A DNA stretch of 64,000 nt, taken from Sphaerosporella brunnea (taxonomy: Eukaryota; Ascomycota; Pezizomycetes; Pezizales; Pyronemataceae). The DNA lies in NCBI GenBank assembly GCA_008704415.1, contig VXIS01000049.1, positions 143,348 through 207,347 on the forward strand. The letters run 5' to 3'. The notes beneath the pieces are model-generated. The model had not been told where the DNA came from, searched no databases, and saw nothing but the letters and a program-made list of their open reading frames with translations. Positions 6,289-63,030 of the stretch are shown piece after piece. The first letter of the stretch is position 1. Every line of letters starts with the position of its first letter. The translations under genes were made by a program, and so were the position numbers.

Positions 6289-8390
6289 TCACGGCCGGTA
6301 CTCCTTCAAACGAGCGATGCCCCTATCCAAAATATCCAATACGGCGTTATACATATCGCGTATATCCTCCTCGGACTGGCGCGTGGCTGGTAACATCATT
6401 GGCGAACCATCTTCGTCCATGACCCACCGCGGGCTACAGCGGTTCTTCCGCGAGTGGTCAATCAGCTCACGCCAGGCATCGGCCACGACCCATAATTGCT
6501 GCTTTGCGGTGTCGTTAAACGTGGGGAACACGTTGCGCATAAACAGGTTCTGCTCCAAATACATGACTTTCTGGCTGGCGGCGGAGATTCGGAGGTCGTG
6601 GGCCTGGTCTGGTTCGGGGTTGATGCCTGTGAAGATGGTGGGAAGCGGCTTCGGAGTCCGCAGAGCACCACGCTCATCGTAATGGATGGCGATGTCCAGC
6701 AGCACGTAGTAGAAACTCTCCAGGTCCTGGATCGGCGAGTGCGGCTCGCTCATATCTCCTGTCAGGACGTCAATGCTCATGTACCTGAACGTGCCGGTGA
6801 TGAAGTCAGCTCCAGACAGTCCCAGTCGCGCGCGATCGATCGCGAAGTCGAAATCGATCAGGAAACCGTATGGGAACTTCGCGGGTGTTCCTCGTTGCGG
6901 ATGGAGGAGGATGTTGTTCAGGGATACGTCGCGATGCACGATGTTGTGTTCCGTGTACATGTGGCGATGACCAAGCACTGCGTCCCGCAGAGCGAGGAGA
7001 AGGTGTCTGTAAGAAGTGAACGCGAGCAAAGGGTACCCCAGTGGACTCATAATGAGACGTGTTTTGACGCGTTTCTGAAGGCGAGTGCCGTCATCTGTCG
7101 TCTTGTAGAGGTTCCTGCTGGTGTCGGTGAGGCGCCGTATCCAAGTACGCCCTTTGTCCTGCGCACCGTGGTCGATGCCCTTTCTGACGTGGCCAGCAAC
7201 GTCCATGACGCTCCCGGTTGGCCCACATCGCACGTCGGTGTGCCAGATATACTTTGGCAAGCCCACAGTTTCCGGCGTGACCCGGGCAAGGATATCGCCC
7301 TCTTGGTCACGCTCGAACGCTCGCCACTGGTCCTTAATGACATACACCCATGGGCTGCCATCGGGTTGATCGAACGGTCGAGCACGCCAGCACACTGTTC
7401 CACGAGTTGCTATTGCATACCGGCGAACGATGAAGCTGTGGCAGATGCGGTACTTTTCATTATCAGCGACGATGAACGGCTCGGGCAGGCTCCGGTTGAC
7501 GAAATGAACGGTTGGATCATAGACAACGTCGACGACAGTGTTGAACGGGTTCCATCTGATCGTGGGATCGAATCCCACGGCCTCTGAGTCTGGGGTCAAG
7601 AAAAACTTCATCGCGCCCAGGAAGAGCTTGGGTTGCTGGTGAATATCTATCGACGTTGATCCGAGAGCTCCGGATCTGTCAAAGCGGAAGATGCGCAGGA
7701 GTGAGCCACAGAGAGTGAAACCGAAAGCCCAACACCTCTGCGGCTGAGTACCGAAGATTTCACGCATGTAATTCGCGAGTTGGATGAACGTTCTGTCGCG
7801 GCCGTCTTTGTCTGGGTTACTCTTCAGCTCGCCGACGACGCGAACCTGGTCCCAGTATGTCCGAGGATGTTGCCCAGAAAGGCAACATCGGACAATCAGA
7901 TCACCTTTTCTGTTCGCATCTCCGTTCTTGATGACGATATTACCGGAGCTCACGTATTGCGTCGTGCACTCAAGCGCAGCCGCCGTGCACCCGTCTGGCG
8001 CTGCTGCCGTGGCATTTTTCGCAGCAGCGCGTGTGTTCCGCGGTCTAGGGGGACCATATTTCGACTGCTTAGAGTCGTTCGTCACCGCTCCTGGCGTCTC
8101 TTGAATCAGGGGGTGTATGTCCGTGAAAAACCACTTCAGAACCCTGTGCTCGTGTGTCGACTCGGGCCACCCGACCCAGCGGGAGCCATCGTGGAGGTGA
8201 GCAGGTCCAGCAATGTTGTCGAAAATCTCCCACAGCGTGTCGATGTCATAGATGACTCTGTCCCAAAGCTCGTTGTACAAACTGAGATCCGTCACCTTCC
8301 GAGCTTCGATCCTTTTTTTAGTCGGTTGCCGGTGTCATTGAAGGCGTGCGGACGCAAGGCGTCGGAGTTCATGCTGGGCGGCGTTGACAT
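6289..8390 (-). CDS. FunK1-type fungal protein kinase
   Basis: The 668-codon frame from 8295 to 6289 matches the fungal-specific FunK1 kinase family. The catalytic loop is HRDVSLNNIL. The metal-binding motif is DFD (LIDFDFA) rather than DFG, which is usual for FunK1. GTFRYMSIDVL takes the activation-segment position, followed by QDLESFYYVLL. The N-terminal half (ELKSNP..., FGTQPQRCWAFGFTL) is the usual family region. Its frame begins inside coding sequence. A second frame just upstream (from an ATG at 8390: STPPSMNSDALRPHAF) reads into it if one base is gained in a 7-T run at 8313-8319, so the gene either has a real frameshift or a base-calling slip there. These kinases are thought to phosphorylate Ser/Thr; substrates are unknown. 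A 1.0-kb repeat element occupies the promoter side. Confidence 0.85.
8313..8319 (-). other. homopolymer at the FunK1 frame break
   Basis: Seven T on the plus strand (seven A in the gene). The upstream frame encodes NRLKK and stops 24 bases later. The downstream kinase frame is open through the same bases, so a single-base gain or loss in this run explains the break. Confidence 0.6.
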
Positions 8391-21500: not shown

Positions 21501-21655
21501 GAGCATCCAAACACCTCCATTTGCACCTCGCACCGACGAACACAGTAAACACGTGGTAGTTGCCACAGACGCGGGGTTGGTACAGTACCTGGACACTGAG
21601 TCCCTTTGAATGTTTCTCTCTGAGAGCCTGAGCATTTGAACACCTGCATTCGCAC
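21501..21655 (-). repeat. diverged tandem repeat, second unit split by copia
   Basis: About 100 bp at 21501-21600 (beginning CTGAGCATCCAAACACC) recurs as 21629-21655 plus 26519-26590, with the copia element inserted inside the second unit. On the minus strand both units read VLYQPR... then a Cys-rich segment and (L/S)DAQ or SNAQ, suggesting a broken repeat protein. Family not recognised. Confidence 0.45.
21651..21655. repeat. copia target-site duplication, left
   Basis: CGCAC immediately before the 5' LTR; the identical 5 bp follows the 3' LTR at 26519-26523. Confidence 0.95.
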
Positions 21656-21854
21656 TGTTGAAAACGAGCTTTCTAGGTGTGACGGGACGAGTGGATAAGG
21701 GTCGAGGTGGGACTGAGTGATATCCAGTGAAGCTGTGAGATGGTGTCTATACGTAGCTAGGCTAGCATGAAAACTAAGCAATATAACCATCGCTTACCCA
21801 CCATCCATCTATTCTGACTAAGCTCCATCTCTCTACACGTCCACACTTTTAACA
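21656..21854 (+). repeat. copia 5' LTR
   Basis: Begins TGTTG and ends TTTTAACA. It supplies the promoter and transcript start; I see no canonical TATA box. A diverged relative lies at 39842. Confidence 0.95.
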
Positions 21855-21866
21855 GGTTATGAGCCC
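21855..21866 (+). other. primer-binding site (half initiator tRNA-Met)
   Basis: GGTTATGAGCCC directly abuts the 5' LTR. It is complementary to the anticodon stem-loop of initiator tRNA-Met (GGGCUCAUAACC) rather than to a tRNA 3' end. Drosophila copia is known to prime from a cleaved initiator tRNA half, so the same mechanism is inferred here. Confidence 0.8.
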
Positions 21867-21922
21867 TGTCGCGCTTTCCTGAAAACGAAATCGCTTCCTC
21901 CATCAACACCAAAACCATCAAA

Positions 21923-22849
21923 ATGTCCTCGAAAACGCAGATGTTTAAGCATCCCAAAGGCATCTTCGACCTCCTCACCACCGAAAACTACGCATCATGG
22001 GCGATAAACATGCGACGCATCCTTCGCTCGTCCGATGCCTGGGATATCGTAACCGGTGACGAAGAAGAACCCGATCAGCCTGCGCCCAACGCATCTGAGC
22101 GCGTACGGCAAGCCTTCAAAGACTACAGACACCGAAAAGAGGATGCAGCTACCTACATCTTCAATGGATGCTGTAAGACCGTGAAAGTCATGATAAGCGG
22201 CACCGATGATCCCAAAGAGATGTGGGATAAGCTTGCCAGCAAGCTCAACACGGCCAACTCGGCTCTCGGACGACAGCAACTGCACCAGAAATTCCTAGCA
22301 ATGAGGCCAAAAGCTGGAGCTCCCATAGCCGACTTCTTCACCGAGCTTGAGGAGATCCGAAACCAGATCGCAGGCACCGACGAGGCGATTTCCGACACGA
22401 CGTTCAAAACGCACATATTCAACTACCTGCCACCGGCTTTTGCGATGACAATCAACAATCAGCAGAACCGACCGGAAGCCACTATTGAGAGCATCTGCAC
22501 CGCCCTTATCGAAGATGAGAGACTGCGATCGATGAAGTCCAGCGCAGATGCAGCAGTGGAAGCCCTAAAGGCAAGCACCAAGCCCCCTAGAAGAAAGAAG
22601 CGATGCAACCACTGCAAAACAGCAACTCACGATACCGCGGAATGTTGGTACAAAGACGACAAAGATCACCCTAGAAGAAGATCGAAGCGACCTCGTGACG
22701 ACTCAGACGATGACAAGGTAGTATGCTACTACTGCTGCGAGACAGGCCATCAGCTCAGCAAATGCCCACTCCGGCAGAAAGCCAGGTCCATACGCAAAAA
22801 GGCTTCCGTCAAGAAAGACTCCGACTCCGATGAAGGAGCAGACCTCTGA
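21923..22849 (+). CDS. copia Gag
   Basis: 308 aa, starting at the first ATG after the leader. Residues 1-220 form the copia-type capsid domain (DUF4219/UBN2-like: WAINMRRIL, MWDKLASKLNTAN, ADFFTELEEIRNQI). Two CX2CX4HX4C zinc knuckles follow: CNHCKTATHDTAEC (about residue 230) and CYYCCETGHQLSKC (about residue 273), which bind the genomic RNA. Basic linkers and an acidic C-terminus (KKDSDSDEGADL) precede a TGA stop. Pol follows in the same frame, so Gag alone is the main product and Gag-Pol needs stop readthrough. Confidence 0.95.
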   Translation: MSSKTQMFKHPKGIFDLLTTENYASWAINMRRILRSSDAWDIVTGDEEEPDQPAPNASERVRQAFKDYRHRKEDAATYIFNGCCKTVKVMISGTDDPKEMWDKLASKLNTANSALGRQQLHQKFLAMRPKAGAPIADFFTELEEIRNQIAGTDEAISDTTFKTHIFNYLPPAFAMTINNQQNRPEATIESICTALIEDERLRSMKSSADAAVEALKASTKPPRRKKRCNHCKTATHDTAECWYKDDKDHPRRRSKRPRDDSDDDKVVCYYCCETGHQLSKCPLRQKARSIRKKASVKKDSDSDEGADL

Positions 22850-22901
22850 CGGTTACGGACCTCCGCTCTAACGGCATCAACCTCACTTGGTGCGGAGGTC
22901 C
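22847..22901 (+). promoter_or_regulatory. candidate stop-codon readthrough signal
   Basis: TGA at 22847-22849 is followed directly by CGG. After a 7-nt spacer (22850-22856) comes GGACCTCCGC (22857-22866), which pairs perfectly with GCGGAGGTCC (22892-22901) across a 25-nt loop. UGA-CGG with a stem-loop starting about 8 nt downstream is the type II readthrough layout known from several plant RNA viruses. The frame is open from gag through the TGA into protease, and the element is otherwise undamaged. Function is inferred. Confidence 0.75.
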
Positions 22902-25900
22902 TACTAGCCACAAGACCCATACTGTCTACCACTACCTGGATCATCGATTCAGGAGCATCTGAGCATATGTGTAACGATATCAACTGCTTTCTTCAAAAAA
23001 CCTTAGCAGCGACAAACTACAAGGTCAAACTCGGCGACGAATCTGAGTTATCGGCATCTTACGTCGGAACCGCATACATCGACGGAATACCCCTACACCA
23101 CGTACTACTAGTGCCTGAATTTCGTCTATCTTTAGTCTCAGTTTCACGACTGGACAAAGAAGGTTACAAATCCGTATTTAGTGATGGAAAAGCCACAATC
23201 ACCGATGAGAGAGATCGGACTCTGTTTGCAGCTACCGAAGAGCGTGGCCTCTACAGAATCTATTCGAAGAAGCATGATGCTTTGGTGACTACTCGATCAG
23301 GGAAGAAGACACTTCCACCACGAGATCGAAAGCACTGCATACGACCTCCAGATGAGGATATATCTCCACAGGAGACATTGATGGGCTTGATACCATCCGA
23401 AGATCCTACTAGGGTGATGCGCTTGATAGCATCTGAAAACCCTAGTAAGGTGACGTCTGAAAAGACATTGATGGGCTTGATACCATCCGAAGATCCTACT
23501 AGGGTGATGCGCTTGATAGCATCTGAAGACCCTAGTAAGGAAACGTCCGAAGAGACACTGATGCGCTTGACAGCACCCAGAAAACCTGCTAAGGTAACAT
23601 CTCCACACGAGATAGATAAAGATCTACTAGGATCTGAAGAAGCCGCAAGCAGCGTATCCACGCAAAACGCCGCAATATGGCATAGGAGACTAGCTCACCT
23701 TAACCACGCATCTATGAAGAAGCTACTCGGATCTCAGATCCCAAGCCTGAATTGCGATATATGCATCATAGCTAAACAAACTCAGAAGTTTGATAGAACG
23801 CAGCAAAAGAGAGCGACGAAGCCATACGAATTCATCCACTCAGACCTATGTGGACCCCTTAAAACAAGCATCGGAGGAGCATCATACTACATCGTGTATA
23901 TTGACGATCTCACCAGATATACTGAAGTCTGTTTCCTGGTCACGAAAAACGCCCCCGAAATCATCTCGAAGTTTAAGGGCTTTCAAGCAGCGATCCAGAA
24001 CAAGGGCTACTCCATTCAACGCTTTCGCTGCGACAATGGGGGTGGTGAATACAACAACACCGAATTCCAGAAGGTTCTGACAGACTCGGGAATCCGCTAC
24101 GAACCTGCTCCTGCCTACACGCAGCATAAGAATGGCGTAGCCGAGAGGATGATCCGGACTATCAATACCAAGGCTCGCTGCATGCTACTGGATGCTAAGC
24201 TCCCTATGCGATTCTGGGCTGAAGCCGTAAGGACAGCAGTCTATCTCCACCGGCGGACCCCAACTGCAGCCTGTAGCCACATGACACCATACGAAATGCT
24301 ATTTGGTGAGAAATCTCCACTACAGCATCTTCGGCGTTTTGGCTGTATTGCCTACAAATTCGTCCCGAAAGAGCAACGCAAGGACAAGAAGTTTGGTATA
24401 CGATCGCGACCCTGCATGATGCTAGGATACGTCCACGACACCACTAAGATCTGGCGTATATGGGACTTCAACCGTGGCTTACACGGTGGAGCTGTCGAAT
24501 GCTCGAATGTCGTCTTCAGAGAAGATCAAAACGGCTACAGTACCCCAGAAAACGACGATGATGACGTCAATTTTCCTACTGATGACGATGACGTAAGCGA
24601 ATCTGATGATAACGCTGTCACTCACTCCCGTCAAGCAGCAAATGCCATCATAGTCGAAAAGGCCAATCGAGGGGGGAGTGACGAAGTTGATCCGATTAGC
24701 CTTCGCTATGAGCCAGATCCCACCTCTCTCAAAGAAGCTATGACGAGCATCCACAAAGCCTCCTGGATCGACGCAATGAAAGAAGAGTGGAAGTCGCTGC
24801 TAGACAACCACACCTTTGAATTCGAAGCAACTCCGAAAGCCATCGAAATCGCAACTCCGAAAGCCATCGGAAGCAGATGGGTGTTTAGGACAAAACTCAA
24901 CCCAGATGGGACTACGAAATTCAAAGCCAGACTAGTCATCAAGGGATACGAGCAAGTCAAAGGCATCGACTTCAACGAAACCTACGCTCCTGTCTCGAAG
25001 CTCTCAACCCTTCGCATGCTATTGGCCATAAGCGCCCAGAAAGGCTGGAAAATCGACCACATGGACGTTAAATCAGCTTTCCTTAACCCTGAGATCGATA
25101 ACGACAACGTCTACATGAGCTTACCGCAGGGTATAGAAGAAGTTGATCCCTCGCTATCAAGCTCTACCGTACGACTGAGAAAAGCTCTTTACGGCCTTAA
25201 GCAAGCTCCGAAGCTCTGGTATGACAACATCAACCAGTTCCTGCTATCTCTCGAGTTTACTCAATCCACTGCGGATCCGAATCTCTACATCACAGATAAG
25301 GCTCTACTGCTACTCTACGTCGACGACATCCTCATCATCCATACCAAGCAGCATGGCAGTAGAGGAGACGAAATCAAGCGACAACTCAATGAGCGATACA
25401 AGATGACAGACCTGGGTCAAGTGCAGAGGTTCCTAGGCCTAGAGATTGGACGAAGCTCAGCTGGCATAACTCTTAGCCAATCGACGTATATACACTCCAT
25501 CATCCGAAGATTCGATCTTGAAAACGCCAAAGAAACCGCTTCACCGATGGATGCAAACGTCGATCTTGACAACCCCCTATGCAACGACAAGCAGGTGTCA
25601 GATACGACTCTATACCAGTCTATGGTCGGATCTCTCATGTATGCGGCACTAGGCACTAGGCCAGATATTGCATTCTGCGTCACAGTCTTGAGCAAATACA
25701 ACGCCAACCCTCTACAGATGCATCTAACAGCTGCGAAACGAGCTCTACGATACCTCAAGAAGACATCGAAATACGGACTACACTTCCCTAGCATCGAGCA
25801 GCATAATACCAGCATAGTAGGCTTCACTGACTCAGACTGGGCTGGGAGCACTGGAAGCAGAAAGTCGATCGGCGGATACGTCTTTCAGATGAATGAGGGA

Positions 25901-26305
25901 TCCATATCCTGGCAAGCGAAGTCACAGACAGTTGTCGCCCTATCGACGTTAGAAGCTGAATATATCGCCTGCTCGGACGCAACTCGAGAAGCCATCTGGC
26001 TTCGACGCCTGCAAGCCGAAATCGATCGACTCGGAGATCCCACGAAATCGACGCCGACACCTATAAGCTGCGACAACCAGGGAGCCTTGAAGCTTATAGC
26101 CACTGGAGTTCTGAAAGCAAAGACAAAGCACATAGACATCAAGTTCCACCATGCTAGAGACGAGCAAGAGAAGGGGCACGTCAAGTTCGACTACATAGCA
26201 TCTGAAGACAACATAGCAGACCTGCTAACGAAAGGCCTTCCGACTCCTCGACACCAAATGCTGACTAGCAAGCTTGGACTTTACGAAGTGGAGGACACTA
26301 CCTAG
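22850..26305 (+). CDS. copia Pol (PR-IN-RT-RNase H)
   Basis: Open in the gag frame from the codon after the TGA; the first Met is at 22967, already past the protease active site IDSGASEH (Asp at 22946-22948), so an independent start would lose protease. Integrase has the His/Cys finger (HRRLAHLNH...CDICIIAK) and a DDE set at SDLCGPL, CDNGGGEY and NGVAER. Reverse transcriptase shows FKARLVIKGYEQ, MDVKSAFL, LYGLKQAPKLWYD and YVDD (near 25316). RNase H shows TDSDWAG, LSTLEAEY, CDNQGA and KHIDIKFH. All key residues are present. Between protease and integrase lies a tandem repeat. Stop TAG abuts the polypurine tract. Confidence 0.95.
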   Translation, partial: RLRTSALTASTSLGAEVLLATRPILSTTTWIIDSGASEHMCNDINCFLQKTLAATNYKVKLGDESELSASYVGTAYIDGIPLHHVLLVPEFRLSLVSVSRLDKEGYKSVFSDGKATITDERDRTLFAATEERGLYRIYSKKHDALVTTRSGKKTLPPRDRKHCIRPPDEDISPQETLMGLIPSEDPTRVMRLIASENPSKVTSEKTLMGLIPSEDPTRVMRLIASEDPSKETSEETLMRLTAPRKPAKVTSPHEIDKDLLGSEEAASSVSTQNAAIWHRRLAHLNHASMKKLLGSQIPSLNCDICIIAKQTQKFDRTQQKRATKPYEFIHSDLCGPLKTSIGGASYYIVYIDDLTRYTEVCFLVTKNAPEIISKFKGFQAAIQNKGYSIQRFRCDNGGGEYNNTEFQKVLTDSGIRYEPAPAYTQHKNGVAERMIRTINTKARCMLLDAKLPMRFWAEAVRTAVYLHRRTPTAACSHMTPYEMLFGEKSPLQHLRRFGCIAYKFVPKEQRKDKKFGIRSRPCMMLGYVHDTTKIWRIWDFNRGLHGGAVECSNVVFREDQNGYSTPENDDDDVNFPTDDDDVSESDDNAVTHSRQAANAIIVEKANRGGSDEVDPISLRYEPDPTSLKEAMTSIHKASWIDAMKEEWKSLLDNHTFEFEATPKAIEIATPKAIGSRWVFRTKLNPDGTTKFKARLVIKGYEQVKGIDFNETYAPVSKLSTLRMLLAISAQKGWKIDHMDVKSAFLNPEIDNDNVYMSLPQGIEEVDPSLSSSTVRLRKALYGLKQAPKLWYDNINQFLLSLEFTQSTADPNLYITDKALLLLYVDDILIIHTKQHGSRGDEIKRQLNERYKMTDLGQVQRFLGLEIGRSSAGITLSQSTYIHSIIRRFDLENAKETASPMDANVDLDNPLCNDKQVSDTTLYQSMVGSLMYAALGTRPDIAFCVTVLSKYNANPLQMHLTAAKRALRYLKKTSKYGLHFPSIEQHNTSIVGFTDSDWAGSTGSRKSIGGYVFQMNEGSISWQAKSQTVVALSTLEAEYIACSDATREAIWLRRLQAEIDRLGDPTKSTPTPISCDNQGALKLIATGVLKAKTKHIDIKFHHARDEQEKGHVKFDYIASEDNIADLLTKGLPTPRHQMLTSKLGLYEVEDTT
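23372..23610 (+). repeat. 90-bp in-frame tandem repeat in Pol linker
   Basis: Two full 30-codon units (23372-23461, 23462-23551) and a diverged partial third, each beginning TLMGLIPSEDPTRVMRLIAS or similar. Lies between protease and integrase, so it lengthens a linker without touching a domain. An expansion by slippage or unequal crossing-over is likely. Confidence 0.9.
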
Positions 26306-26318
26306 AAAGAGGGGGGGG
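26306..26318 (+). other. polypurine tract
   Basis: AAAGAGGGGGGGG ends at the first base before the 3' LTR; it primes plus-strand DNA synthesis. The pol stop codon is directly upstream. Confidence 0.92.
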
Positions 26319-26518
26319 TGTTGGAAAACGAGCTTTCTAGGTGTGACGGGACGAGTGGATAAGGGTCGAGGTGGGACTGAGTGATATCCAGTGAAGCTGT
26401 GAGATGGTGTCTATACGTAGCTAGGCTAGCATGAAAACTAAGCAATATAACCATCGCTTACCCACCATCCATCTATTCTGACTAAGCTCCATCTCTCTAC
26501 ACGTCCACACTTTTAACA
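26319..26518 (+). repeat. copia 3' LTR
   Basis: 200 bp, TGTTGG...TTTTAACA, identical to the 5' LTR except for one inserted G at the left end. Followed by the target duplication CGCAC at 26519-26523. Confidence 0.95.
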
Positions 26519-26523
26519 CGCAC

Positions 26524-51157: not shown

Positions 51158-54100
51158 TCATTCTTGTGGCTTCTCTGGCCACTTTCCTACATGCGTGCTC
51201 GACAGGAAGCCCAACAGGGCTCCCGTACACCTAGCGTCTGCCAGGACCCTGGCCACCGGAGTGGAGGACCTCTTCCAGCCCTCCTTGCCGCCTACTTTCG
51301 TTGCCAGCCCTATGGCCTTCCATAGGGCTTCCTGCTCTTTCGTCCATCTTGCGCACCTCTTCAGAAGATGCTCCCTCGTCTGCTTGGGGGCCTTGCGGCA
51401 CCACCAGCACTTGTCGTCCGTCCTGCGGCCGGTCCACATCAGATATGGGGAGGTGGGTGCTTTGTTGAGCCGGAGTTGGAAATACCGGGACGCCAGTGCT
51501 TTAGGAGCCTTGGCCGCAGTCTTGTCCCACTTAGCTTTGCGCTTATAGTATGCTTTGGCTTTGATCTGGCGGCTCAGCCAGGCATTTCGGTCTTTCGTCC
51601 TGGCGTCGGTGACCAGGCGGCCAATGTGCGCCAGTGAGGTGACTTCGATTGTGTGCGGCCTATCCAGTCGGTCTCTTGCAGCGGCTTTGGCGACTTGGTC
51701 GGCCATTTCGTTGCCTGGGATGCCCTTGTGTCCGGGCACCCATCTGTATTCGGTGTTCCAGCCGAGGAGGCGTAGCTCATTTTCAGCTTGGCGGATTCGT
51801 GGCAGCATCCATTGACCTGCTCCCGGGTCACCACGCCTCAGGCGTTTGAGTGCCGCTTGAGCGTCCACAAAGATGTAAACGGTCCCAGACAGGTTCGGCG
51901 GGTCTTCTTGTCGAAGGCGTGATCTGACGTGGGTGCTTCTCGATGCCAGTTCTAGTCCAGCCGCGATGCCGAACAGCTCTGCGTCATAGGCTTCCTTGTT
52001 ATTGCCAATGTAGCCACTGCTTCGGCACCACTCGTCGACAGTCATGCTGGTCCGTGCGACTGCGCCAAAGGCACAGTGGCCGTCTTCCAAGCGTGATCCG
52101 TCCGTGTACACTGCCATGTGGTTTTTTGTGGGCTGTTCCAGTGACGAGGCCGTCAGCGCCGCAGTGTTTTCGTCATCCTCAATGGCGACATGGCCGGTGG
52201 GGTGCTGGAGATTCGGTCGAGTCGGTTCTATGCTTGTGGGGTGTCTAGGGATGGTTACGGCCAATCTGCCCATGATGTTGGGTGGCTGAGTTTCTGGGGC
52301 ACTCCCACCAAAGGCGTTGCTTGCTATAAAGCGGAGCAGGTCGTTGGTAGAATTGACTTCTGGCTGTCGGTTTCCGTTTAGGTCGGTTGCGGCGTTCCGT
52401 AGCCGGTTGCCGGCTGGGTTATCGTCTGGAGTCGCCGCCAGGCGGGCTGCAAGGCGCCTGCGTCTGTGGCGGAGGACAGTTTCGGCGTCTGTCAGGCCGG
52501 CTTCGCAGATGAGGGGTCCGATAGCCGACGTCGGTAGGGCACCCAGTACTGATCTGGCCTGCCTGTTGAACAGCTTCTGTATATCTGCAGTTCGTTCCTT
52601 TTAGCCATCAAACCATAGTTCGGTTCCGTATAGGGCGACAGCTTGCACCGCGGCGATCTGGATCCGTCGTACGTTCTCGGTGCACAAACCCAGCCGGCCC
52701 GTTAGTGACCGGATCCTGGCCTCCGCGGATCTTGCCTTGCCCATTCTGACGTTATGATGATGTTGGAGGGTCAGTTTGGAGTCCAAGAAGACTCCAAGCC
52801 ATCGTGTCGCATGCTTGTTATAGGGAACTTGTGTGCCAGCCACAGAGACCTTCATGTCGGGAAGCCTCCGCTTCCGCGTTAGCAGGATTGCTTCGGTCTT
52901 GGCCACATCAAAGGCCACTGCGTTGGCGTCTGCCCACTTGAGGCTGGCGGTCGCGCAGCGGTTAAGCATGTTTGTAACGTCTGCTACTGTGTCTCCGGTA
53001 GCAACCCATGCAATATCGTCTGCGTATGAGAGCGCGAAAGTGCCCTGGACGGCTTTCTCCACCTCAGGAAAGAGGCCTGAGAGGTATATCGCGAAAAGGA
53101 TGGGCGAGATTGGGGATCCTTGTGGTAGCCCTGTCTTGATGTTGATCGTCTCGCTGAGTTGTCCTTCGACCTTCATCTGGACACGCCTATTTTCCATGAA
53201 GGAGGCAGTCCATTTGATCAGGCTATGTGGTGCTCCTAGCTTGATGAGTCTGCGTATGAGCACGGCTTTAGATACATGGTCGAAGGCTCCTTTGACATCC
53301 ATCAGTAGTGCGCCGACCATGCGTTTCTCCTGCCAAGCCTCTTGTGCGTGATCCATCAGGATTGCGACCGCATCCACGGCTGCTCTTCCTCGTCTGCTGC
53401 CAAATTGGCCAACATGCAGCCAGCCTTTTGACTCTGCAGCTTGAGCCAGTCTGCCTGTGGCTACTCGCTCGATTACCTTGCCCAGGCAGCAAAGTAGGGA
53501 GATGACACGATGAGCTCGGGCTTTGGAGTAATCGTCCTTGCCAGGTTTGGGTATGACGACGCCGATGGCCTGGCGCCATGGCAGTGGCTGGTGACCTTGC
53601 CAGATGCACGCGCGTACAAGCCCTGTGATCCTGTTGGGGTCCCACTTGTAAGCTAGCCTGACGGCTGGAGGACCCAGCTTGTCTGGGCCAGCAGCGGAGC
53701 GGGAGGCTTGCGCAAAGCATGCCTGCTCGATCTCTTCATCTGAAACATACGTGTCGTTGTTCAGTCCGTCAAGCTCTTGAGGGGACCAGTTGTCGGATGG
53801 AGGCTCGGGGAAGGCTTGACGTGCCATCATGTCGCTCTTCTCCCTTCGTGGTGATGGCCATCCTGCCGTCCTGACCGGTGAGCGCACCCCCTTCAGTCAT
53901 TGTGGGAGTGTTGTTAGTGTATCTCAGGGCCTTCCATGTGTCTTCTGGGCCGGCGTGTTGTAGAAAGGTCGTCCAGTGTGCCCGTTTAGCTTTCCTGATA
54001 GCGCTCCTGAGAGCCCTGCGTGCATTTTTCACAGCCTGATGGGTGGTCCCTTGACGTCTGCGAAAGGATCGTTTGACCGCATTGAGTACACGGCGTAGTT

Positions 54101-55023
54101 CGTCGATGTCTGCGTTCCACCAGCGCTTAGAGCGTGCACATATACGTAGCGGCTTGGCGTGCATCTGGAGGGTTTGGGTGATGGCCGCTGAAATCCAGGT
54201 AGCCTCCTGGTCAAGAGCTGTCACTGGGGCAGTCGAGCTGTACCACCGGCCTGTTTGCAGCCAGTTCTCTCCACGTGTCCTCGGCGTCTTTTAGCTGTGT
54301 TTCCGTCATGCCGTTGATGTCCCAGCCAGTAACTTCTGTGCTGGTTTGGTTGGAGCGGTTGGGCTTATCCTCGAAGCATGACCACATTATCAGCTGGTGG
54401 TCAGAGCCCGTCTCGAGATCAGGCTGGTCTATAGTCCAGTTGCTGACAATCACGTTCTTTGACAGTGTGAGGTCCAAAATGGCTGGCTGTGCTCCGCGGT
54501 CGCACGTGGGGGTGTCGTCGTTCCAGACAGTCAGCTCATGGTGGTCGATGAGTGTCTCAAGCCAAGCGCTATTGCGGTTTGTTTGGCAGGTTGGGTCCCA
54601 GCGTACGCTATGCGCGTTGAAGTCGCCTGCTAGGATGACCTTATCTGAGTCCATAATGGCGGCCCAGTTTTCGGTGCGACTGGGCCTTTGGCTAGTGAAG
54701 GCATTGTTGACGACGTTGATTTTGAACTGATCGTAGACGTTGATGATACGGCATTTTGCGCCGGATGGTGAGGTTGCGTCGATAACCATGACGTCACCCG
54801 CGCTGGATACCAACTGAGATTGAACAGTGAAGTTGGTCTTGGAGTCGGTACGTATGGCAGCCCAGGTCCTGCCTGAGCCGTAGAACCGAAAGGCCTGGTG
54901 TGTAATGCGGTAGGCTGGGGGCTCCTGAATGAGCACTAGGTCCGTCTTGTTGCGAATTGCAATTTCTAGACAGGTATGCAGGACTGGCCCGGACCTGTTG
55001 ACGTTGTGTTGGATGCACCGCAT
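51158..55023 (-). pseudogene. LINE ORF2 (endonuclease-RT-RNase H), three lesions
   Basis: Endonuclease (55023-54211): HNVNRSG, QEPP, GDFNAHSVRWD, LDLTLS, GSDHQ are all present. A frameshift near 54215 leads into a linker (RWWNADIDELRR), a second near 53835 (TTKGE to KSDMMARQ) into reverse transcriptase (to 52601): IPKPGKDD, LMDVKGAFDHV, GLPQGSPISPILFAIYLSG, YADDIAWVA. A single in-frame TAA at 52601-52603 (WFDG-stop-KERT) precedes RNase H: YTDGSRLEDG, AYDAELFG, IFVDAQAALKRL, PGHKGIPGNEMADQ, then the Cys/His motif CWWCRKAPKQTREHLLKRC. All catalytic residues remain. The ORF2 ATG overlaps the ORF1 stop. Confidence 0.92.
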
Positions 55024-55025
55024 TA
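55021..55025 (-). promoter_or_regulatory. TAATG stop-start overlap of ORF1 and ORF2
   Basis: On the minus strand the ORF1 stop TAA and ORF2 start ATG share one A. Such UAAUG junctions mediate termination-reinitiation in some non-LTR retrotransposons (known for the silkworm SART1 element); coupled translation is inferred here. Confidence 0.75.
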
Positions 55026-57377
55026 TAATTCTTCGTCTGCCCCCGGTGTGACCGGGACTGACAGTGAGGCCTGTTCTAGATCCATATCATCGGTCATGGC
55101 GTCGTCTACGTCCTCTTCATCCTCTTCTTCCGTACCCAAATTCGCCGTCGGAGTAGCCTTGGTGTTGGCTGGCTGAGCTACCAGACGTGGTCGGCGGGGG
55201 TCTCTGAGCATGGCCCCGGCTTCGGGTCGTTGTCCTGGGGTGTCCTTAATCGCCCCAACCGGGGTGGCGTTCGCTCCTGTAGCCTGAGTGGCGGTAGCCG
55301 ATTCTGCGGGATTAGATTTTCCTCTGGCCTTTCTAACCGCCTCCTTCTTCTTAGGGCACGTGTCGCTTTTTGCGGAATGTTTCCCCATGCAGTTGGGGCA
55401 TTTAAGCATTGAAGCGGAGTGCTTGCAGATGCGGCCTGTCTTCTTGTTGCACTCGGCGCAGCTGGTGATGTTGCACTTGTGGGTGGCGGTAAGGTGCGAA
55501 CCGCTGCAGTGCGCGCACTTGGGTGAAGCTTGCATCCTCCTGTGGCCGCAGTTAAGTGACAGGTGGCCCCAGCCCGAGCAGTGATCGCAGAAGGCATCAG
55601 GACCTGCTTTCAGGTATGATTCTACCTTCAGGCAACGTCCCGCGAGAAGCAGACCCTTTCGGATGGCGTGCATAGCGGTGCCGCGGTCTTTAACGGCGAA
55701 GGTGACAGAGGAGGCCCGTATGTTGCCGTCTCTGGTGCGTTGTTGGACTAGAGTCTCCGGGACCAGCCAGCGGATCTTCATTGGGATGTCCAGGCCATCA
55801 TTATCGGTCATCAGGTCTCGCTTGAGCATGTCGAGCTTGCCGATGTAGCGTTGAGTGTCTACGCCGTGGAGTTTGATTCTTGTCCATTCCTCATTTGGGC
55901 TTACAGCCACTATGGATGAGTCCAGTCGTCTTGCCGCAGCTAGGATGGTGTCGCTGAAGGTGCAGACCTGTACAGCAGTTGCCGAGGGGTATGACAGGGC
56001 GGTGACTGTGCCTTTCCGGTTCTGGGTTATCTTGGCCAGACGGATGAAGCCGGGGGCTCGTTTTGCGGCCAGCGCGTCGTTGATGGCTCGAACCAGGTTG
56101 GAGCCATAGCTGTTGTTGACGGGGTGCTGCGAAGCACCTTCCTCGCGGGCTAGGATGATCGTCCGTGCTCTGTCAGGGACGTCTTTCTCGGCTGGTTTGA
56201 GGGCGGCGATTGGGGTGCCAGTGGCGAGGGAGACTGTTGTTTTGGGGGCCCTGTGGGCCTTCCTCTTGACGACCGCTGTCCAGGACCCGTCCGTCCTAGA
56301 GGTGTCAGCCTCGCTTGGTTTATCTGCCGCAATGAAAATGCTTGGTTTCGATGCAGGGCCCGCCTTGAGTTCCTTTGTCTTGGTGGGGTTAGTTGCGTTG
56401 TTGGTACGACTGGCCTTTGCTGCAGCCGTGGCTGAACGTTGCAGGATCTTCGGGGGCCTATCCTGCTCCGTCTGGTGAGGTTGGTTGTCGATCTTGGGGA
56501 GTGCGTGCTGGGACGCTGCGAGGGACTCTTCCTTCCTTGGTCGGACTAGCTGTGCTAGCAGCTGTAGCTCCACGGCGTGCTCTTCTTCGGTCCTGTTCAT
56601 GATTTCCGCCTCCTCCTCTTCAGTCACCCACTCCATGGATGAGCCCGGTTGTGGCGCCGTAACTGGAGTCGGAGTAACGGCTGCCTTGTGTTTGGAGGCA
56701 GGGGGCTTGTGCGTTTGAGGGCTGACCGTGCCCTGGAGCTTTGCTTGTACGGTGCGGGTAGCTTGCTGCTGGATCGTGACCATGCGTTCCAGCTCTGCCA
56801 CTTTGGCAATGAGTGGTTCTGTGATTTCGGCCATCAGCCTGAGCATGCGGCTTGTGTGCATCTCAAAGCCGGCATCTAGGCGGTTCATGTGGCCGACCAT
56901 GGCCTCTTTGACGGCGTCGTGGATGATCTCCACAAGTCTGTTGTTTTCGGGCGCTTCCTGGCGTCGGCGTTTGCGCGATTCCGTCAAAGGCTGGGCGGGC
57001 GGCCCATCGAATGTGGTGGGGGTGCTGAACCTGCTAAGGTCCATGGGGTTGCTTCCTGTCAGGCCGCGTGTCATGGCGCGGGTCATGCGCGGGGCGTTCA
57101 GGGCGCCCGGGGTCGGCGGGGTTGGGGTCGGGGCTGGAGCGTCAGACCCAGTCTGGGGCTCGGCGGGTGTCATGGCGACGGGCTCGGCGGCGTGCGTCAT
57201 AGCGACGGGTGCAGCGGCGCGCGTCATAGCGACGGGCGCGGCGGCGGCCGGGGTTGGAGTCAGGGTCGGTTCGGACCACTGGGAAATTCCCCGGAGGTCT
57301 ACATCCATATTGTCCGCTTGGGACGACACAATCGGGTCAGATGGGTCCTCCAGATGAGGCGCGGCGTTCGGGTCCAT
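55023..57377 (-). CDS. LINE ORF1 (Gag-like, zinc knuckles)
   Basis: 784 aa from the ATG at 57377 (DPNAAPHLEDPSD after the Met). A Thr/Ala/Pro-rich N-terminus, a helical segment (MHTSRMLRLMAEITEPLIAK) that may be a coiled coil, a long basic linker, an RRM-like region (VRAINDALAAKRAPGFIRLA...) and a C-terminal zinc array: CDHCSGWGHLSLNC, CAHCSGSHLTATHKC and CPNCMGKHSAKSDTC. It should coat LINE RNA. Intact. The frame is also open upstream through the LINE 5' UTR into the host exon (to an ATG at 57839), so a 938-codon fused frame exists; I prefer the internal ATG because the extra part is host and UTR sequence. Confidence 0.9.
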   Translation of the reverse strand: MDPNAAPHLEDPSDPIVSSQADNMDVDLRGISQWSEPTLTPTPAAAAPVAMTRAAAPVAMTHAAEPVAMTPAEPQTGSDAPAPTPTPPTPGALNAPRMTRAMTRGLTGSNPMDLSRFSTPTTFDGPPAQPLTESRKRRRQEAPENNRLVEIIHDAVKEAMVGHMNRLDAGFEMHTSRMLRLMAEITEPLIAKVAELERMVTIQQQATRTVQAKLQGTVSPQTHKPPASKHKAAVTPTPVTAPQPGSSMEWVTEEEEAEIMNRTEEEHAVELQLLAQLVRPRKEESLAASQHALPKIDNQPHQTEQDRPPKILQRSATAAAKASRTNNATNPTKTKELKAGPASKPSIFIAADKPSEADTSRTDGSWTAVVKRKAHRAPKTTVSLATGTPIAALKPAEKDVPDRARTIILAREEGASQHPVNNSYGSNLVRAINDALAAKRAPGFIRLAKITQNRKGTVTALSYPSATAVQVCTFSDTILAAARRLDSSIVAVSPNEEWTRIKLHGVDTQRYIGKLDMLKRDLMTDNDGLDIPMKIRWLVPETLVQQRTRDGNIRASSVTFAVKDRGTAMHAIRKGLLLAGRCLKVESYLKAGPDAFCDHCSGWGHLSLNCGHRRMQASPKCAHCSGSHLTATHKCNITSCAECNKKTGRICKHSASMLKCPNCMGKHSAKSDTCPKKKEAVRKARGKSNPAESATATQATGANATPVGAIKDTPGQRPEAGAMLRDPRRPRLVAQPANTKATPTANLGTEEEDEEDVDDAMTDDMDLEQASLSVPVTPGADEEL

Positions 57378-57558
57378 GGGGCTGCGCGTTCCAAAGTGTC
57401 GCGCGCCCTTAATTTTTCGATTTGCTTGCGCGCCCGTGAGCGGCAAGCGAGCTTGAAGCTTGAGTGTTGTTCGCGATGTCAGTTTTAAGCCAATCGGAGT
57501 TTGACACGTCGCGGCTTGGCGTTTCCAAGCACGGTGCGTGTGAGGTGTTGGTGTGTTG

Positions 57559-57839
57559 CCGGCGCGCTTGGGATTAGGCTTGCGCTTACGTTTCTTCACA
57601 TTGTACGACTGACCTGCGGCTGTGATCCTGCTCGTCCGGGGCGAGGCATCTATTGGTCGGTTGTCAGGCAAGGCTCGGTAGAGTGGAAGAGGTAGGTAGA
57701 TACCAGCGGCTTGAGAGGTTTCACTGTCAGCAGCGGGAGTCGCAACCGCAGCGTCAGAAGCGGGAGTCACAACATCAGCGTCAGAAGCAGCAGCAGGCGG
57801 AGCGCGTCCCTGGATTAACCTGCGAATCAATGCGGCCAT
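57559..57839 (-). pseudogene. gene-family copy A, 5' part of exon 1
   Basis: AALIRRLIQGRAPPAAASD follows the Met, then TPASD repeats, ETSQAAGIYLPLPLYRALPD and a basic end (KKRKRKPNPKR) at the LINE target duplication. Past the LINE, the sequence restarts with a second AGIYLPLPLYRGLPDN, so before insertion exon 1 held a tandem duplication of this module. Function unknown. Confidence 0.7.
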
Positions 57840-62331: not shown

Positions 62332-63030
62332 GTGTTTGGGCTCCGTGTACCGGGGGTGGACCCTTTTCGGGCGGCGGAGCTGTGGTCTGCGGATATTGTT
62401 GCAGTCGCACTCGACCCAACGATGAAACTCACCTGGTTCCGTGACCAGTCAAAGCATAAGCCGGCATGGATTGAGCAAGCACAGGAAACGGTCGAGGAAA
62501 TCTGGCAAACATCATACCGTGGTCAAAGTGGAGAAATAGTTGCCAGCGCTCATGGAGGACCAGAGGATATCACCTCAACACTCCCTCTGTGGAAGCGGAA
62601 TCGCCGCCAGCTCCAGGCAGCTGATTATGTGAACCGTGACATCATGGAGGTCTCTCAGCAGGAGCCACCCCTATACGAACATGTGGTTCCCGATGTGATG
62701 AGATATTGGGCTTTGAAGCGCACCGAACCCCGCTGGAAAGGTCTGCCGCAGATGGCACTAGAGTATCTACGTATACCAGCAATGTCCGCTGAGCCAGAGC
62801 GTGTCTTCAGCGCCGCAAAGAGCACAATTAGCCATAATCGGCGCAGTCTGAGCGGCGAGGCCATTAGCACTGTCGAATGTCTAAAAAGCTGGTCGCACGA
62901 TGTCCTTGTAACGGGACAGGCGCGGGGGACGTCCAAGGTACGTAGCGTTCGAGGCAATGACAGGCAAGGCAAGGACAGGAGGCAGGTGCTAGGCATGGCG
63001 AGACTCGGAGAGGTGGTTCAAGGTTGCTAG
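62332..63030 (+). pseudogene. hAT transposase C-terminal fragment
   Basis: 232 open codons. ALDPTMKLTWFRDQ is the pre-dimerisation segment; LPLWKRNRRQLQAADY..., MALEYLRIPAMSAEPERVFS and SAAKSTISHNRRSLSGEAIS are the dimerisation block, followed by VECLKSWSHDVL. The zinc finger and catalytic Asp region are absent; the last 35 codons look like flanking sequence. Different lineage from the other hAT relics. Confidence 0.8.

Follow-up and report, generated by a model that had tools for sequence, protein, structure and literature searches.

The gag and pol genes of a Ty1/copia retrotransposon in Sphaerosporella brunnea share one reading frame that is interrupted by a UGA codon, and the UGA-CGG sequence together with a downstream hairpin very probably serves as an intrinsic switch through which a small share of ribosomes continues into the enzyme-coding part. 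The element lies on the forward strand of a 64,000-nucleotide stretch of DNA, referred to here as the window, to which all positions given below refer. Type II readthrough signals consist of a UGA followed by CGG or CUA and, in most cases, a 3' structure that begins about 8 nt after the stop codon, according to the available text of a review (PMC3542737). Judging from the make-up of the junction, it is highly likely that Gag would be produced by termination at the UGA and Gag-Pol by readthrough at a type II element, a ribosomal event which we infer from known type II signals. The junction is conserved in four families of elements within one genome, and its helix carries paired changes.

The element spans positions 21656-26518 and is a Ty1/copia LTR retrotransposon, possessing LTRs, a 5-bp target-site duplication, a copia-type gag and an integrase that precedes the RVT_2 reverse transcriptase. 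The 5' LTR (21656..21854; TGTT...AACA, 199 bp) and the 3' LTR (26319..26518; 200 bp) share 195 identical bp, which occupy 26324-26518 in the 3' copy, and differ by a one-base indel near their 5' end. They are flanked by the duplicated target site CGCAC (21651..21655 and 26519..26523). A probable primer-binding site follows directly after the 5' LTR (21855..21874) and resembles the half-tRNA-iMet site of copia. A pattern search of the genome for the gene of the primer tRNA gave no match with full anticodon-arm patterns and 11 matches with a shorter pattern, nine of which are on contigs with junctions counted here; the remaining two are L096, which looks like the end of an LTR, and L097, and ARAGORN detected a tRNA in neither.

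The gag ORF (21923..22849) encodes 308 amino acids with a copia-type gag domain (Pfam PF14223, E 1.5e-18) and two CX2CX4HX4C stretches that were recognized by eye in the translation (22604..22645 and 22724..22765, the second being the zinc knuckle). Its TGA at 22847..22849, the proposed readthrough codon, is the sole separator from pol (22850..26305), which continues in the gag frame for 1151 open codons and contains the Pfam domains Pol_BBD, gag_pre-integrs, rve and RVT_2. The protease Asp codon (22946-22948) is located 33 codons from the stop. The integrase core (23816..24118; PF00665) scores 29.8 bits, which is below the curated cutoff of 32.6, and its assignment is backed by the flanking domains. 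Reverse transcriptase (24857..25549; PF07727, E 1.2e-64) follows, so that protease region, integrase and RVT_2 stand in the Ty1/copia order. Between the protease region and the integrase, pol also contains two in-frame 90-nt direct repeats (23373-23552) which are 94% alike and amount to a 30-residue duplication.

The stop codon is followed by CGG (22850..22852), and after a spacer of 7 nt from the stop the arm GGACCTCCGC (22857..22866; core ACCTCCGC, 22859-22866) pairs with GCGGAGGTCC (22892..22901) in a perfect 10-bp stem that encloses a loop of 25 nt and extends to 14 pairs if one mismatch is allowed. The preliminary description had reported one gag-pol frame split by TGA-CGG, a perfect 10-bp stem after 7 nt and near-identical LTRs; the first was borne out letter for letter, with pol open to 26305, re-reading gave the same arms and spacer for the second, and the LTR comparison agrees with the third. 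When helices starting 6-9 nt after a codon were ranked by a nearest-neighbour score, none of the element's remaining 1340 in-frame codon positions had one as stable, and when the peptide was kept and its codons were resampled synonymously, the observed stability was reached in only 42 of 5000 cases. A 79-nt fold of the window's junction had a z-score of -4.0, with none of 200 shuffles as stable. The z-scores of three other folded junctions, taken from the other families, were modest (-1.43, -1.76 and -0.43, with 18, 12 and 62 of 200 shuffles as stable).

Relatives were sought in one 50.6-Mb assembly of 640 contigs, from which every aligned DNA row is taken. A DNA search with the junction identified 15 places, five of them 99-100% identical (the window included) and ten 72-79% identical; all 15 have TGA and 14 have TGACGG. 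Two of the copies (L002 and L003) have a junction identical to that of the window and open frames of 1151 amino acids. The five near-identical copies are located on different contigs and are flanked by different 5-bp duplications (CGCAC, GCCAT, GGAAT, ATTAT and ATTTC), indicating that they arose from five separate insertions rather than by duplication of one segment. Searching at the protein level with the protease region returned 65 matches, and the junction region was covered for 52 of these (30 loci, 20 retrieved stretches, and C100 and C615, which came by way of the DNA search), with 13 weak matches left out. By eye, the 20 retrieved stretches comprise four readable junctions of the UGA lineage, four in which the junction is lost (L076, L080, L085 and L087) and 12 that belong to one-frame lineages. 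A second protein search of the genome with a family E query gave 53 matches, from which no loci were taken. A pattern search gave 76 matches as compared with 64 for a backwards control, and the loci from it (L046-L075) were left out of the counts.

Together the DNA and protein searches yielded 37 distinct places with a readable junction, which fall into four families: A, to which the window's element belongs (15 places), B (4), C (13) and E (5). Identity to the window in the protease region is 58-60% for B, 45% for C and 39-40% for E, based on two rows in each case. In five of 21 rows (L009, L010, L034, L039 and L040), a RIP-type dinucleotide index lay beyond the customary cutoffs in the direction of RIP. 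Beyond this assembly, public proteins include four Gag relatives from metagenomes besides the window's own, 43-65% identical, as well as three family E protease pieces. Read by eye, one of the Gag relatives (P0002) has the same EGSPL terminus as the Gag protein at L014, and the remaining three stop shortly past the zinc knuckle. A search of a viral contig collection revealed no relatives. A genome contig collection contained one (L098, JANSYO010000171.1; 34% identical), a one-frame copia element with no stop at the site. Its contig is filed under a Cytophagales MAG and is probably eukaryotic contamination.

At the position homologous to the window's UGA, 32 of the 37 places have a stop codon, which is TGA in 31 and TAA in one (L077). 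The TGA is followed by CGG at 29 of the 31 places, the exceptions being L013 (CAG) and L028 (CCG). Hence a UGA followed by CGG or CUA, as in type II signals, is present. The remaining five places (L034, L035, L039, L045 and L079) have a sense codon. Counting within the retrieved stretches around the junctions, each of these five is interrupted again in frame: the closest downstream stop is 15 to 229 codons away, and all but one of them also contain a stop within 51 codons upstream. Decay does not separate the TGA and sense-codon groups, since many of the TGA places are decayed too. Among 35 rows, however, TGACGG is found in every one whose retrieved stretch keeps pol open for 550 codons or more (the window, L004, L005, L009, L010, L042 and L043), and L042 and L043 belong to family E, the most distant of the families. 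A sense codon at the site was found in no open copy.

In an unrooted protease tree, which included L034 and L035 from among the sense-codon places, these two fall inside the stop-bearing lineage, and their sense codons look like derived losses. The same tree separates one-frame from UGA rows with a support of 79/56. Two other copia lineages (11 of the 20 retrieved stretches) and one single element have one gag-pol frame with no stop at the site (one-frame rows L081-L084, L086 and L089-L095), and open frames of 1547 and 1476 codons occur in the one-frame elements C86 and C342. In one-frame L084, a stop replaces a Trp just before the protease motif, and its sisters keep the Trp. With one-frame lineages beside the UGA lineage, two expression strategies coexist in one host.

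A perfect helix of at least 8 bp that starts 6-9 nt after the stop is present at 25 of the 31 TGA places, a number that rises to 29 when a single mismatch is tolerated; L015 and L029, both of which are decayed, have no helix even with one mismatch. Across the junctions, the stem is 8-10 bp and the loop 15-25 nt, pairing partners having been sought within 150 nt. A 3' structure placed as in type II signals, about 8 nt past the stop, is present as well. When the 10-bp helix of the window was projected onto 26 distinct rows of families A, B and C, 85% of the 260 cells were paired, as compared with 41-54% (maximum 53.8%) when the register was slid by 1-3 columns. Three helix pairs are changed on both sides between families (AU/GC, CG/UA and GC/CG). 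In these rows, doubly changed cells numbered 25 versus 11.1 in shuffles, with none of 500 shuffles as high, and the covariation score exceeded that of all 500. Shuffles matched or beat the observed number of pairs changed on both sides in 306 of 500 cases and the number of further pair types in all 500, and a register slid by -2 gave four pairs changed on both sides with a covariation score of 0.217 versus 0.249 for the true register. Since the paired changes follow family lines, they represent about three events and not dozens.

Family E has a helix (CGGCAGCAT/ATGCTGTCG) whose sequence is unrelated to that of the window and which begins at the same 7-nt offset; the position of its 3' arm, judged by eye on the codons, is shifted a few nucleotides downstream relative to the peptide, and 93.3% of its 45 cells are paired. 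Synonymous resampling reached the observed stability in 13 of 5000 cases for L031 (family C) and 15 of 5000 for L043 (family E). Overall, the observed stability was reached in at most 213 of 5000 resamplings for 15 of the 19 rows tested; the other four (L027, L029, L041 and L044), whose helices are interrupted, were unexceptional (4378, 581, 4079 and 1927 of 5000). Conservation of the stop, the CGG and the helix supports the proposal in the preliminary description that this element makes Gag and Gag-Pol by UGA readthrough. Its expectation for related copies in the same genome was also realized, as TGA-CGG and the stem are kept in four families with paired changes, and intact copies with a sense codon at the TGA, which it had named as evidence to the contrary, were not found among the places examined.

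The peptide that follows the stop is constrained in family A, and the tail of Gag just before the stop is not. Over codons 1-20 after the stop, comparison of the window with five relatives gave sd 4.5-8 and nd 1-3.5; for the last ten codons of Gag, two pairs gave 2-3 synonymous versus 10-11 non-synonymous changes. In family E, pS exceeds pN between the stop and the first ATG in seven of seven pairs. No clear synonymous excess was seen in two of three pairs for family B or in two of four pairs for family C, where the two were about equal. Changes in the family A loop are mostly at third positions, and L012 is the only row in which third positions within the arms have changed. This pattern of a stretch that is both translated and structured is clear in families A and E and weak in families B and C. 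In nine family A rows, the unpaired loop codons GCA TCA and TCA CTT, which in the window lie within 22874-22888 (codons 9-13 after the stop), are likewise frozen at third positions.

In the mechanism proposed here, most ribosomes would stop at the UGA and release Gag, while in a minority a near-cognate tRNA would decode the UGA and translation would continue in the same frame to give Gag-Pol. The cis-acting signal would comprise UGA-CGG and a helix of 8-10 bp, with 6-9 nt between the stop and the 5' arm of the helix. The CGG, and the helix at the mRNA entry side, may help the near-cognate tRNA to be accepted. The readthrough event, its rate, the amino acid inserted and stimulation by the helix are all matters that we infer. 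Alternatively, a dead or trans-mobilized copy may have been disabled by mutation to UGA, the stem being a chance palindrome. Most diverged copies in this genome are indeed decayed and a defective copy can move in trans, so the five fresh insertions alone are no proof of function. Conservation across families nevertheless contradicts this reading and makes it extremely improbable: four families share this codon at the homologous position (31 of 37 places), copies with open pol carry the UGA, and in families A, C and E coding constraint does not account for the helix. The claim in the preliminary description that the junction does not reflect simple decay is upheld by the shared position of the codon and by the TGACGG kept in open-pol copies. 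We regard as highly improbable a further scheme in which inefficient splicing removes the UGA to produce a gag-pol mRNA, although splicing is reported to regulate Gag and Gag-Pol in Drosophila copia (available text of PMC2194720). The window does have one YAG 58 nt after the stop with a CTAAC upstream of it, but no YAG acceptor is present between the stop and the protease Asp in three of 35 rows (L006, L007 and L008), which disfavours, at the level of DNA, a conserved intron that removes the stop, the outcome that the earlier account had offered as a refutation. Splicing would also require another reason for the helix and the CGG.

Synthesis of Pol by reinitiation or internal initiation downstream of the UGA is very unlikely. 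An in-frame ATG is found 21 codons after the stop in L009 and L010, and at codon 14, before the protease Asp, in all five family E rows (L041-L044 and L088), and the predicted protein P0007 begins at apparently the same Met as the latter; in these rows the position of the ATG gives no reason against reinitiation. However, most rows of family A (11 of 13, the window included) and of family C (12 of 13) have no in-frame ATG over the interval from the site to the protease Asp, or over the 40 codons that were searched. In the window the first pol ATG (22967) comes only after the DSGASEH motif, and the ATG of L077 (family C) is inside the motif that follows the Asp. Even in family E the peptide between the stop and the ATG changes mainly at synonymous sites, and initiation downstream would leave the CGG and the helix unexplained. 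A role of the helix in packaging, dimerization or RNA stability, with the UGA bypassed in some other way, is similarly unlikely. Structured RNA near the end of gag can do other jobs, and the frozen third positions in the unpaired loop codons of family A would fit such a role, but families with unrelated helix sequences all begin the helix 6-9 nt past the stop, which is the type II geometry as given in the portion of the review available (PMC3542737).

Type II signals had been described in the preliminary account as a class of plant RNA viruses. The UGA-CGG with a stem about 8 nt downstream stands, but the class is not limited to plant viruses, and the available text of the review names alphaviruses, tobraviruses, pecluviruses, furoviruses, pomoviruses and coltiviruses as members (PMC3542737). 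The junction described here shares with these viral signals, as they are presented there, the UGA, the CGG and a helix that begins about 8 nt after the stop (PMC3542737). It differs in its location between gag and pol of an LTR retrotransposon, where readthrough is predicted, and in what appears to be a compact stem with a loop of 23-25 nt in place of an extended stem-loop. The word retrotransposon is absent from the main text of that review. Two other classes of signal were considered. A CARYYA (type I) signal was rejected, as CGGTTA follows the stop here. Moloney MuLV and other gammaretroviruses (type III) likewise obtain Gag-Pol by readthrough of one in-frame stop, as is proposed here, but they use UAG-G and a compact pseudoknot; the window has UGA-C, and a search for pseudoknot pairing between the loop and the 150 nt downstream found no pairing common to 11 rows.

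Fungal Ty1/copia elements that are split by a UGA are already known, as the accessible parts of two reports describe Tca2 of Candida albicans (PMC2194720) and VdLTRE5 of Verticillium dahliae (PMC3441728). In VdLTRE5, gag and pol are separated by a UGA without CARYYA, and the authors suggest remote signals, as far as the text available to us goes (PMC3441728). By description, VdLTRE5 and the element studied here are both Ty1/copia elements of filamentous fungi with the order gag, UGA, pol and without CARYYA (PMC3441728, in part). Tca2 has an in-frame UGA between gag and pol and a structure 8 nt downstream, and its 300-nt junction directed no readthrough in S. cerevisiae, according to the sections of the report at hand (PMC2194720). 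The inactivity of that junction counts against the readthrough reading of the present element. Tca2 differs in that a purine-rich spacer and a MuLV-type pseudoknot are described for it in the same sections (PMC2194720). The Tj1, Tosmo and Tcry1 elements of fission yeasts also have an in-frame TGA between gag and pol, which in Tj1 is reported to be essential for transposition, but they are Ty3/gypsy elements with the conserved context TGA-CT, and no stem is reported for them in the available text (PMC10085805). Among the titles and abstract openings of the open-access literature matches listed, no description of a UGA-CGG with a stem in a retrotransposon was found, and the accessible portions of PMC5009743, PMC5014426 and PMC3562529 describe no such signal. 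What appears to be new is a candidate signal of the type II class for reading through the gag stop in this lineage, no signal having been found described for it.

These observations bear on the question of how UGA-split Ty1/copia elements make Pol, which was left by the failure of the Tca2 reporter and the lack of CARYYA in VdLTRE5. They offer a concrete candidate signal, roughly 60 nt long and available in natural versions from four families, which form a mutational series for what the ribosome may sense 6-9 nt after a UGA. If the readthrough reading is true, the type II class would extend from RNA viruses to LTR retrotransposons. The chances are about even that a broader proposition also holds, in which a whole lineage of fungal Ty1/copia elements would inherit an obligatory type II switch that is convergent with that of plus-strand RNA viruses. 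The helix would have been rewritten, even with another 3' partner, around a constant stop, CGG and spacing of 6-9 nt, and the same switch would explain UGA-split elements such as VdLTRE5.

Elsewhere in the window, a run of ORFs on the minus strand (51158-57839) resembles a non-LTR element that is broken into several frames. By eye, these ORFs comprise a zinc-knuckle ORF1, an endonuclease, a reverse transcriptase and an RNase H; a Pfam search with the 938-amino-acid ORF of the run gave no match. A fungal-type protein kinase gene, which makes a fungal host very likely, is located on the minus strand at 6289-8295 (PF17667, E 1.4e-91), and a fragment of a hAT transposase C-terminal dimerization region (PF05699) is present at 62332-63030.
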